From positions 496,001 through 560,000 of the forward strand of contig NZ_CP025257.1 of assembly GCF_002843565.1 (NCBI RefSeq): a DNA stretch of 64,000 bases. The letters run 5' to 3'. The position numbers were made by a program, and so were the translations under genes. Position 1 is the stretch's first letter. Each line of letters opens with the position of its first letter. The notes beneath the pieces are model-generated. The model searched no databases. It was given only the letters and a program-made list of their open reading frames with translations, and was not told the origin of the DNA. Positions 46,688 to 57,578 of the stretch are shown one piece after another. The stretch comes from Mesoplasma syrphidae. GTDB lineage: Bacteria; Bacillota_I; Bacilli_A; Mycoplasmatales; Mycoplasmataceae.

Positions 46688-47182
46688 TTATTCTCCTATG
46701 TAATCTTCATCTACAAATTTTATTTCATAGTTAATTTGACTCTCTAATAAAATATCATCTTGAAGTTTAAACATTCTTGTTTCATCTTCTAAACTAGTTT
46801 CATGATCATAACCCAACAAATGCAAAAATCCATGTGCAAATAAAAATCCCATCTCTTGTTCAATTGTATGATCGTATTTAATAGTTTTACGTTGAGCCTC
46901 TTCTAAACATAAAAATATATCTCCAACTTCTCTCACACCTAAAGCAATAACTTCTTGACTGCTCAATTCAACTGGAAAAGAGGTAACATCAGCAATATAA
47001 TTTTTACCACGATATTGTTGGTTGATTTCTTGTGCTCGTTGAGAATTTACAAATGTCACTGACAATTCAATTTTTTCTTTCAAGTTTAAAACCTTATGTG
47101 CATTAGTAAAAATATTTTTGGCAAATTTTTCTCATTTTTTCATATCGCTTGATGTTTCATTTATAAAATTTATTTCGATCAT
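46688..47182 (-). CDS. ybeY: Endoribonuclease YbeY
   Basis: A 164-residue zinc-dependent RNase involved in 16S rRNA 3' end maturation. The signature HGFLHLLGYDH and the upstream REVGDIFLCLE are intact. I chose ATG 47182, which is preceded by GGGGAT and gives a complete N-terminus (MIEINFINET); one TGA Trp codon follows soon after. It is the first gene of ybeY-era-recO. Confidence 0.94.
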
Positions 47183-47224: not shown

Positions 47225-49075
47225 TTAGTATAAATCGTTAAAAACAATTAGCAAATTAGAATTAATCTCAGCTGCCAACTCTATAATTTTTAAAACATCC
47301 TCACGTCTTATCAAATAAAAATTTTGATCAATGATATAAACACTTTTGGATGTAAATAAGACACGACATAAAACAATAAGCTCTTTTTGAAATTCGCTTA
47401 ATCCTTCAGGAATAATTAAACTCTGAATTTTCACACCATATTTATTAGAGAATTCTAAGAAGGCATCGGTACTTAAAATTTTGTTTGCATTAATTGAAAA
47501 ATTATTATCTACTAAATTACTTAGTAGAGTTCCATATCAAATGTCTAGATTATAACTATTGCCATAATAAATTTGGGCTCGAATACTTAAAGTAGTAAAG
47601 TTAGAAACTTCCAAATTATTAATGAATACTTCAATAAGAGAATTTTTTACTGACTTATTAACAACTTTCAAAAAATTTCTTTCCTTTTTGAGAATATTAA
47701 TTCCTTTTAATAAGATGATTGGTGGCTGAGCAATTTCAACTAACTTGATAGTATGAATATTCGGACAACTATTGTTTGTCTTCGTATCAATAAAAAGTTT
47801 GTTAAGTTTGAAAACATAACTAAAATATTTTTTGCGATGTTTGAGAAAACTTAGCACCAGCTTTAAGTGAGTTTGGCTTAAACTATTAAGCACCAAAATG
47901 ATTATTAAATTTTCAAAAATAATTGCCTGTTTTTTTAAATCAAACCACAAAACTCAGTAAATCAAAAGTACTAAAATCTTATCCAATACTAGCTCAAAAT
48001 TTTTAAATCAGTCGATTTGAAAATGATGATTATTGTTTTTTAATTTTAGTAAAATCTGATCAATCATGACTTTTTCTTTTCCAGAATTTTGATAAATCTC
48101 TTTACTAGTTATATATTTTATAACTTCAATATTAGCTGATGGCGCTTGAATTGGAGTAGTGACGAGTAAGCTGATTCCTATTATGATAAAGTTATGAACA
48201 AAAATTAACCCCGCAACACCAAAATTAAGTTTGGCTATTACGAATGAACATATAACATTGGAGATTGTATTCGGAATTATGGGAATAATTATATTAATCA
48301 TAAAATCGATAATAAATTTGCTTTCTTCAAAAATTTTATAGTAGTCAATCTGATGACTATAATTGGTACAAAAATAGAAAAATTTTTTGAGCATAAAAAT
48401 ATGCTGTTTTTTTCGCAATTTTTCTACGACCAATGCATTGAGTTCTTTAAATAATAAGTTTAAAACAAATAATGTAAAAAAATAAATATACAAATAAATA
48501 TTAGGTTGGGAATAAACAAGATCTTGGCCATATTTTTTAATAAACTGTGCTTCGCCAATAAAAATTATTGTTGTAACAAAAGTTATTATTGAATAATTTA
48601 TTATGTATAATTTGTATCCTTTAAAATTAAATGCTTTTCAAAAGCCACGTTCTGCTTTGTAAAGTTTTCTATTAGCCGTAAAAATAATTATATTACCTGC
48701 AAAAATGCTTTGAAACTCTTTTCACGACAACATCGATTGACGAGATTTGCTTGGGTCATTAATAATTATTTTATTATCAGTAATTTGACTGACAATAATA
48801 AAATGCAAAATTCCTTGTTTATCAACAGTTTGAGCCAAAAAAGGTTTCTGCTTTTTTAATAACTCAAAATCAGTTACTTTTTCAAAAGCCTCTCCATTTA
48901 AAAAATAGGCTTTGGCAATGACCACTAAATCAAAAAAATTCAAACTCTTCGAGTCTAAATTTTGTTCGTATTTTATTTGATCAATATCAATAGTTGTATT
49001 ATGAAAAAAATTAATAAGCATAGCTAAACATGCAATGCCACATTCTTGATACCCTGTTTGCTTTATGTGTCTAAT
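47225..49075 (-). CDS. C39-peptidase ABC-transporter-like protein with degenerate ATPase, probable ATT start
   Basis: About 616 residues in one TGA-containing frame. The N-terminus is a C39 bacteriocin/pheromone-processing peptidase with Gln6, Cys12 (QTGYQECGIACLAM), His91 (GILHFIIV) and Asp107 (NDPS): all triad positions present. A multi-helix ABC type membrane domain follows (~150-400). The C-terminal nucleotide-binding domain keeps the start of the fold (PPIILLKGINI) but Walker A is replaced by VVNKSVKNSLIEV (~471-483), the signature is EGLSEFQKELIVLCR, and Walker B ends IIDQ. ATP hydrolysis seems unlikely. The frame has no ATG before residue 19; ATT 49073-49075 lies 5 nt after AGGGTG. It follows the DJ-1 gene. 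Confidence 0.75.
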
Positions 49076-49080
49076 TTTCT

Positions 49081-49100
49081 CACCCTTAAAGAATTAGAAA
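49081..49100 (-). promoter_or_regulatory. Shared 20-bp element upstream of the C39 gene
   Basis: Minus-strand TTTCTAATTCTTTAAGGGTG, 18/20 identical to the element before comEC (14931-14950) and again exactly 5 nt before an ATT codon. It fills almost the whole gap between the DJ-1 stop codon and the C39 reading frame. Confidence 0.6.
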
Positions 49101-49102
49101 AA

Positions 49103-49657
49103 TTAGTTGATTACCAGCGCTTTTGCCACTTTTTCACTTATTGTTTGGTCTTTTAGATACCCGACTATTGTCAATGCAAACTTTATAGCCGTCCCTGCAG
49201 ATTGCCCAGTTATAATATTTTCATCAATTGAGTAAGGCTTATTGTTTAAAATTGCTTCATCTAAAAATCTATTGCATCCAGGATATCCTGTAATTTTTTT
49301 GTTTACTGTAATTCCAGCTTTTCCCAATAATTGTGGTGCTGCGCAAATTGCCGCAACCATTTTTTGAGTTTCATTAAATTTCTTTATTGTCGATATCAAG
49401 AAGTCATTTTCAAATAACCCATTAACTCCTGGTCCCCCAGGAATGATAATTCCTTGATAATCATTATCTATAAAATTATGGCAGCTATAATCAGTATTAA
49501 TCTCGATTTGATGAGACCCCATTACCTTCAAACTGTCACTTAAAGCAATTAAATCAATTTCAATTTCAGCCCTACGTAAAATATCAATTATTGTAATTGC
49601 CTCAATTTCTTCAAAGCCTGGATGAATAAAAATTGCCACTTTGTTGTTTTTTATCAT
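49103..49657 (-). CDS. DJ-1/PfpI family protein
   Basis: A 184-residue protein with the DJ-1 fold: VAIFIHPGFEEIEAITIIDI with the conserved Glu of the nucleophile elbow partner, IIIPGGPG and the nucleophile MVAAICAAPQLL (Cys). Relatives act as glyoxalases/deglycases or chaperones; which applies here is open. A GAGGT ribosome binding site precedes the start. The C39 gene follows by about 27 nt. Confidence 0.88.
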   Translation of the reverse strand: MIKNNKVAIFIHPGFEEIEAITIIDILRRAEIEIDLIALSDSLKVMGSHQIEINTDYSCHNFIDNDYQGIIIPGGPGVNGLFENDFLISTIKKFNETQKMVAAICAAPQLLGKAGITVNKKITGYPGCNRFLDEAILNNKPYSIDENIITGQSAGTAIKFALTIVGYLKDQTISEKVAKALVIN

Positions 49658-55271: not shown

Positions 55272-57578
55272 ATGAAAAAATTATTAATTATCTTAGGTTC
55301 AGTAAGCATTTTTGCTTCATCTGGAAGTACTGCTGCCTGCTCATGAGGAAACAAATATAAGGCTGATATTGTAAAAGACGTTCAAGACTATATTGCTGCT
55401 TCTTCATTTGTTGCTCAAGCAGCTATTTTAAATAATAAAGATGGCGCTAATATGGATTTGGATTATACTGCAAGTTATATTAAATCTTTAAAAATAGTTG
55501 ATGTTTTGGGAGAAGAATGAATTAAGGGAATTGGTAACAGTACAATAACCAAAGAATCAAGTTTAGAATTTTTACTGAAGCAAGTTTTTGGTAATGATCG
55601 TTATAAAGTTAATAAAGATGACCTTGAGCAGGACTCAAAAATTGCTAGATCTATGGCCGAATTTGATGAAGAGGCAAAACAAAAAACTTTATCTGGTAAT
55701 AGTTCGACTGCTAAAACACTTTCTTTAATTTCAGGATTAGTTAATATTTTATTTGGTGGTAGTTCATTCACTCCTCAAGGGCAGGGAGCTTTATTAGAAA
55801 GTATTATTGGAAGTGGCGACACTATTGGTAATCTAATTAAAGGAATATTGACACCGCAGCTTATTGAAACTTTAGATAGTGCCTTATCAGAAAAGGGACT
55901 TATAAATTTATTAAAACAAGCACTAAAGGAAATTCCTGGAAAGCAACCTGGTCAAGAGTATGTCACTGTAAAAGATGCTGTTAATAGTTGTATGAAACAA
56001 ATTATCGACGCCATTATTAAAAAAGACACTACTTCTTTAGTAGTACCGCTGATTCAATATATTAGAGTTCTTGCTTATTATATGTCGGAATTTAAGCCAT
56101 ATCTTAATAATGTTGATGTTAATGATGTTATAAAAACAGATGCCGGTTTTGTAAATATTTTTGATATGACAAAAACAAATTCAGAAATTGTGTCTGAAGT
56201 TTTATTAAAAAATGATGGAAAAATTAATGAAGAAAAATTTGATCAAATTAATTTTAAAGAGTTGTTTAGCTTTTTGCAAATCTTTTTAGTTCCCGAACAA
56301 AAAGACCGTAATGGAATTAATTTTCAAAAATTGATATCAATTTTATTTCAAACACCTTCTATTCCCGAATTGGAAAATCCTTTTTTTGGAGCATTGCTGA
56401 CAAATTTGAAAGATATATTGCAAACGCAATTGGCTACAAAATTAGCTTCTTCTGATGCGGTTAATGAAGTTGTTGGCTTAATTATTAAATTATTAAAAGA
56501 TATCGGAAATGCTTTTGCGAACCAAGGTCCGCTTCCAGGAAAAGACTCTTTAAAAATAATTTTAAAAATTTTAGGAATGCTAGGTATTGAAAGTTTAAAA
56601 CCATATAAACCATTATTTGATTATTTAAATACTAATAGTGAAATTTTTGATAACTTACTTGGCTCTCTATATAGTGGTAACGCCTTATCAGGAATTTTAA
56701 AAGCTTTAAACGATGGCGGAGTTATTAAAATCAGTGATGAAATTATTAATTCTTTAACAAATATAAAAACTGTTCTAACGACTCCAATTGCCAAACTTTT
56801 AAAAGCATTTGGAATAGACATTGAGACTAAGGCAATATTTTTATATGGACTAAAAACGATATCCTTAGCAGATATTATTGATAGCGCTGCTAGTTTTTTT
56901 GAAACAGGAAGAAAATATCCAAATTCCAAGTCAGAATATATTTTAGACACGAAAGATATGGCAAACTTGTTAGACGTTCTTAACACCCCAGAATTAATTA
57001 AATGAAAAGACAAACCAATTGAGGGATATCCTGAAATATTTAACAATACATTATCAGCTTTGTTAGTAGCAATAGTTTATCCAAATGATATTGAGCTAAC
57101 AGAAGAGAGTCCAAAACTTAATGGAATTTCAAAAGCATCATATATTTTAGGTTTAAGAAAAAAAGCTGACAATACTGGATTTGATAATTTTAAAGAAAAC
57201 TCAGTTTATGATGCAATTTATCAAGCCTATGGAAACAAAGAGTTGCCCGAAAGTCCAATGGCCGAAATTAAGGGAAAAACTATGTCAAAAATGGCTAATC
57301 TTTTAATCAAGGTATCAAAATGAATTCAAGATAAATCTTTACCAGCATATGTTAATGATAAATTTGGAGATTATTTGGACCAAAAAAACTGGACAACAAA
57401 ATTTTTATCTGAGGAAAACTTTTATTATGTTTATAATGATGCTTTTATTAAGTATGAATTATATTACAATGATAAGGAATCAAAAACAAGGCAAACTTAT
57501 ATTGTTACTATTAAGCGTGATCGTATTAAGGGACATGAAAATCCAGGGAAAGAATGAAAAGTTTATGCAATAGATTAA
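55272..57578 (+). CDS. MOLPALP family lipoprotein
   Basis: A 768-residue surface lipoprotein. The signal MKKLLIILGSVSIFASSGS ends in TAAC (Cys23 becomes the lipidated N-terminus). The mature protein is largely helical with repeated short hydrophobic-acidic segments such as LIKGILTPQLIETLDSALSE, TPSIPELENPFFGALLTNL and LPGKDSLKIILKILGMLGIE, which fits the MOLPALP paralogue family that is specific to mollicutes. The C-terminal ~190 residues look like a separate domain. Six or more Trp are TGA. It is divergent from the giant permease and monocistronic. Function of the family is unknown. Confidence 0.78.

Follow-up and report, generated by a model that had tools for sequence, protein, structure and literature searches.

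What does a C39 peptidase do once the ABC transporter that carries it has lost the motifs for ATP hydrolysis? The question is posed by a gene on the minus strand of the Mesoplasma syrphidae genome (G000), within a 64,000-nucleotide stretch that we call the window and whose numbering is used below unless another contig or locus is named. In PCAT1 the NBDs are canonical and cleavage is coupled to ATP-driven export, and the C39-ABC proteins known to us are either complete or, as in the HlyB type, have kept the ATPase and lost the peptidase. We found no report in the open-access literature of a PCAT that is ATPase-dead and peptidase-live across an entire clade.

An intact peptidase joined to a degenerate NBD

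The gene is a complete CDS of 616 aa encoding a C39 peptidase, a TMD and a dead NBD (47225..49075, minus strand, as are all features of the gene described here), and it forms a single 616-codon frame that stays open only with NCBI table 4, where its five TGA codons are read as Trp. The Mesoplasma seiffertii (G002) orthologue is 60% identical over the full length. If only ATG, GTG and TTG are admitted as starts, the ORF begins at 49021 and Cys12 is missing; the 18 codons 5' of that position, together with an SD-like AGGGTGAG and an ATT, are conserved in M. seiffertii, so that the ATT at 49075 likely starts the gene (probable start codon 49073-49075, with the SD-like AAGGGTGAG directly upstream; 49073..49087, same ATT and SD in G002).

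The C39 peptidase domain spans residues 1-136 (48668..49075), of which residues 3-135 are covered by Pfam Peptidase_C39 (PF03412) with an E of 1.8e-23, and the same model matches 45/45 homologues. The oxyanion Gln6 (49058..49060), the catalytic Cys12 (49040..49042) and the catalytic His91 (48803..48805) are invariant in 45/45 and are the only invariant columns of that alignment, while the catalytic Asp107 (48755..48757) is conserved in at least 90% of the 45 sequences. The description of the triad and Gln6 as intact in the initial annotation therefore stands, and the loss of Cys or His in relatives, which it had named as evidence against its reading, was seen in none of the 45.

The remainder of the protein is recognizable by structure. 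Residues ~150-430 (47786..48628) form the long helices of a type IV ABC exporter TM region, as judged from the AlphaFold2 model and Foldseek, and residues ~437-616 (47228..47767) correspond to an NBD by motif table, AlphaFold2 and Foldseek, with neither ABC_tran nor ABC_membrane giving a Pfam match in the protein. Built on the alignment of 45 homologues, the AlphaFold2 model shows a full-length PCAT fold at pLDDT 84, with ~90 over much of the NBD, and its best PDB match in Foldseek is PCAT1 (6v9z, E 2.9e-23). The fold and this match argue that the gene is an ABC half-transporter rather than a chance ORF, one whose NBD is ATPase-dead as far as its motifs indicate. As first reported, those motifs are indeed gone: the Walker A region reads VVNKSVKNSLIEV (47627..47665), the ABC signature has become EGLSEFQKEL (47378..47407), the Walker B remnant VYIIDQ (47324..47341) carries Gln in place of the catalytic Glu, and the H-loop His is absent, the chain stopping there. 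With Gln, Cys, His and Asp of the C39 domain in place and the exporter TMD identified by structure and not by Pfam, failure at Walker A, signature, Walker B Glu and H-loop marks the protein as a putative ATPase-dead PCAT derivative and not a functional PCAT.

Comparison with described systems sharpens this picture. The protein shares with PCAT1 (6v9z, 4ry2) the same three-part architecture, the intact C39 catalytic residues and, here as a candidate, a GG-leader substrate, but unlike PCAT1 it has lost all ATPase motifs and has a shortened coupling loop (TM4-TM5, 78 residues vs. 92 in relatives with live NBDs). The best family model is the mollicute Mbov_0121 family peptidase domain-containing ABC transporter (NCBIfam NF045998), which matches over C39 and TMD with 104.5 bits, far under its 500-bit cutoff, and ends before the NBD core; four relatives with live NBDs that were tested against it score ~260-332 bits, likewise under the cutoff. 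FapD-type C39 peptidases have no ABC ATPase. Other dead-NBD members give weak NCBIfam matches to this type (NF058616), which differs in not being joined to an ABC-like body and in having different substrates.

Distribution of NBD loss and selection on the two domains

Within the family, a PF03412 search places the C39 gene in 50 of 60 genomes, in addition to a broken remnant in G011. Viral contigs gave no relative. The motif table of the 45 homologues divides them into 27 in which the NBD motifs are canonical (genera g8, g11 and g12, and G019; G071, counted here, breaks off past Walker B) and 18 in which all are lost (g1-g5 plus G012). In the GlyRS tree g1-g5 form a single clade with 99/95 support and no live NBD inside it; all 17 readable members (17/17) have a dead NBD, which makes the Walker A loss lineage-wide, and the pseudogene carrier G031 also falls within the clade. 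Since G012 is instead the sister of the live-NBD G019, the NBD has been lost at least twice. G001 has gone further: its NBD has been deleted along with a large part of the TMD, while Cys, His, Asp and the GG peptide described below are kept. The TM4-TM5 coupling loop measures exactly 92 residues in 27/27 live-NBD proteins vs. 75-79 residues in the dead-NBD G000, G002, G003, g2, g5 and G022, with 88 in g4, 96 in G005 and 92 in G012, G015 and G027.

The gene has been passed on vertically in a position directly 5' of ybeY, which lies at 46688..47182 (minus strand) and is its downstream neighbour throughout the C39 family. On the other side, a DJ-1/PfpI gene (49103..49657, minus strand) directly precedes the C39 gene in the genomes of g1-g5 and g12, and stands 5' of it in most genera examined. 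Near the G006 C39 gene, past DJ-1, is a 509-aa frame (L094:11138-12664, minus strand) with two weak profile matches over NBD positions, possibly a double-NBD ABC protein. Most live-NBD C39 genes are adjoined or overlapped at their end, before ybeY, by a gene for a one-TM protein of ~125 aa (loci L045, L046, L047, L048, L050 and L097-L115), which is absent in g1 (window included), g2, g3 and g5 and kept in g4 and G012. Its C-terminus (..LLSYLLSxIF) resembles that of membrane fusion proteins; the HlyD-like identity at which this hints found no confirmation, with no relevant Pfam match. Beside DJ-1 and the C39 gene, most dead-NBD genomes have a 1844-aa FtsX-type permease (PF02687; 49731-55265, minus strand, in the window) and a 768-aa putative lipoprotein (55272-57578, plus strand), a pair not seen there in the live-NBD genomes examined.

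Degenerate NBDs are normal in heterodimeric ABC exporters, and the initial annotation had raised the need for a partner ATPase. The protein could accordingly be the dead half of a heterodimeric PCAT, in which the ATPase sites come from a second ABC half-transporter or from a distinct ATPase subunit and ATP-driven export continues. Retention of the NBD fold at high model confidence and under purifying selection would fit such an arrangement, as would the seven other ABC_membrane proteins of G000. The degenerate halves of known heterodimers, however, usually retain Walker A together with some of the site, whereas no ATPase motif is left here; most dead members have a shortened version of the loop that would dock on the other half's NBD; G001 does without any NBD; and the clade members G015 and G016 have, besides this gene, a single exporter pair, whose genes are in tandem to each other. 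Among the ABC-exporter proteins of G000, G015 and G016 no conserved dedicated partner half-transporter was found. The proposed partner ATPase thus gained no positive support, and we regard a heterodimer as unlikely.

Selection has treated the two domains differently. In most dead-clade pairs dN/dS is 0.06-0.16 for C39 and 0.16-0.34 for the NBD (the dead pair G007/G017 being higher overall), while in live pairs the order is reversed, at 0.22-0.29 and ~0.14, respectively. Likewise, C39 identity exceeds NBD identity in 119/120 dead-clade pairs vs. 67/351 live pairs. These values bear on the idea that the gene is in slow decay, with the NBD dead and the rest to follow. The existence of relatives with a canonical NBD, which the initial annotation had anticipated as a sign of a decaying copy, is borne out by the 27 above, and breaks in the C39 gene occur in G031, G064 and G011, with a split gene in G018, G036 and G080. 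Yet 17 of the 18 dead-NBD genomes belong to one old clade of five genera whose frames are long and open and whose dN/dS is far under 1, the only invariant residues are those of the peptidase, and the candidate substrate family is conserved alongside. Because NBD loss is fixed across five genera and the frame is under purifying selection, the window gene is, on this comparative evidence, not a decaying copy; slow decay is already contradicted by these data and seems very improbable. One point against a role as peptidase alone is that the dead NBD is, in most members, full length and under purifying selection, which such a role would not call for; the old transporter body may thus do more than anchor the C39 domain.

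A conserved GG-leader peptide family

That no precursor with a GG leader lies next to the gene is true locally, but one is encoded ~80 kb away in the same genome. A leader-shaped DNA pattern gave ~40 matches, two real leaders among them, and led to a 130-aa ORF in g5, MEKLKVDDLKEIKGG|AASGALLNGIGSIIGK..., just upstream of rplU. A three-sequence profile found relatives of this peptide in 48/60 family genomes, and a better profile with inspection added G072, G076 and G011, bringing the GG-leader family to 51/60, with one gene per genome. The precursor of the window genome, also upstream of rplU, has 110 aa, MKKMSAAVMKQTEGG|AVSGAFLAGLGKLITAS..., and lies outside the window on the minus strand (G000:C1:626518-626850; L269:2019-2351). 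The position upstream of rplU is shared by most genomes, g8 being an exception. In 45 sequences the 15-residue leader has L/M/I at -12 in 45/45, I/V/L at -4 in 41/45, G/A at -2 in 44/45 and G at -1 in 43/45. The genes are usually preceded by a strong SD, after which ATT, ATC or ATA seems to serve as the start at L277:1888 (+), L279:2122 (-), L250:2077 (-), L265:1794 (+) and L235:1770 (-); several GG-leader genes thus apparently start, like the window gene with its ATT, at codons that would cause standard gene callers to miss or trim them.

Such precursors resemble those of double-glycine class II bacteriocins in their hydrophobic -12 and -4 positions and the GG at -2/-1. Class II bacteriocins are typically variable, whereas this family is kept at one copy per genome with a mature-core dN/dS of ~0.02-0.05; over the first 55 mature residues the values are 0.016-0.055 for pairs from the dead clade whose C39 gene is intact, and ~0.1 in pairs involving G031. 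Searches against Pfam and NCBIfam left the peptides unmatched beyond the leader, with no bacteriocin family match over the mature part and weak, leader-only matches to the lactococcin G-beta and cerein 7B models. Structure prediction of the peptide with AlphaFold2 gave a low-confidence, uninformative model. In the open-access literature we found no earlier report of the family.

Peptide and peptidase go together. With broken genes counted, the C39 locus is present in 51/60 family genomes, and the peptide in 50/50 of the informative ones; the absence of the peptide from G023 was dropped as evidence, the fetched stretch being all N and rplU itself not being found in that genome. Among genomes without the C39 gene the peptide is found in 1/9 (G024), where the absences in G009 and G061 rest on the weaker three-sequence profile, and the contrast of 50/50 vs. 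1/9 gives a Fisher p of 4e-9 with phylogeny ignored. Losses fall at separate places on the GlyRS tree (G008, G009, G061 and the G063 branch). The two genes also deteriorate together: in G024, which has no C39 gene, the leader GG has become GV, in G031, with its C39 gene in pieces, it has become EV, and G036, whose C39 gene is split, has an interrupted peptide frame. In G011 and G064 the C39 gene is broken and the GG leader intact, which is explicable as recent decay. G011 had been considered as a counterexample, a peptide with no C39 gene, and was set aside once a fragmented C39 gene was recognized at the syntenic site.

Beyond this family, weaker relatives of the peptide turn up in two others, in most cases with a visible GG leader, and all 19 peptide-bearing genomes of these (19/19) carry a C39 gene; the other C39 genomes of the two families gave no peptide match, possibly because the profile reaches no further. 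In another family, L329 (G119) and L326 (G121) each have two GG-leader peptide genes a short distance apart.

JCVI-syn3A 0401 of Mycoplasma mycoides, compared here by its published description only, is likewise a mollicute C39-peptidase ABC-type protein, to which lipoyl transamidation was tentatively assigned because no double-glycine peptide was known for it as a candidate (PMC6609329). By analogy with this model assignment for 0401 (PMC6609329) the present protein would be a lipoyl-peptide importer or transamidase, but the finding of a matching GG-peptide family that decays together with the C39 gene removes the reason for the assignment in these genomes and leaves it the least probable of the readings considered.

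Proposed leader cleavage without a motor

NBD loss, retention of the peptidase, the co-occurrence of leader and peptidase and their correlated decay are all supported by the comparison of genomes; what we infer from it is that the peptide is cleaved, that the protein has no ATPase activity and that the product inserts into the membrane. The reading that we prefer, at a probability of roughly 0.7, is that the protein acts as a GG endopeptidase anchored in the membrane, has given up ATP-driven export of its own and has the GG-leader family as its substrate. The earlier suggestion of a possible peptidase role has good support. The ancestor would have been an ordinary PCAT, inherited vertically beside ybeY, whose NBD ceased to bind and hydrolyse ATP in the common ancestor of the clade to which Mesoplasma belongs (G002, M. 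seiffertii, included; M. grammopterae is G034) and once more in G012, most members presumably losing the adjoining one-TM gene and the full-length coupling loop as well. The C39 domain, kept at the membrane by what was once the transporter body, would have stayed under selection as a site-specific endopeptidase, with the GG-leader peptide, usually encoded upstream of rplU, as its substrate. Cutting after Gly-Gly, it would take off the 15-residue leader and leave free, at the new N-terminus, a conserved hydrophobic stretch, ..SGALLNGIGSII.. This stretch most likely goes into the membrane, or through it, with no help from the C39 protein's own ATPase.

Extended to the whole order, the endopeptidase reading would describe a mollicute system of one C39 protease and conserved GG peptides that serves housekeeping rather than bacteriocin production, in which the ATPase has been dispensed with at least twice, maturation proceeds by cleavage alone and the product enters the membrane without that protein's ATP; we give this wider proposal an even chance.

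The family supplies a candidate substrate for mycoplasma C39 proteins, whose substrate was stated to be unidentified in PMC6609329, and it amounts to a strongly conserved leader peptide, present once in each of these near-minimal genomes and linked to a type of protease that JCVI-syn3A has kept. A question of unknown function thereby becomes testable in Mesoplasma or in syn3A, and the GG family may shed light on the puzzling gene of this kind that the minimal cell, JCVI-syn3A, carries.
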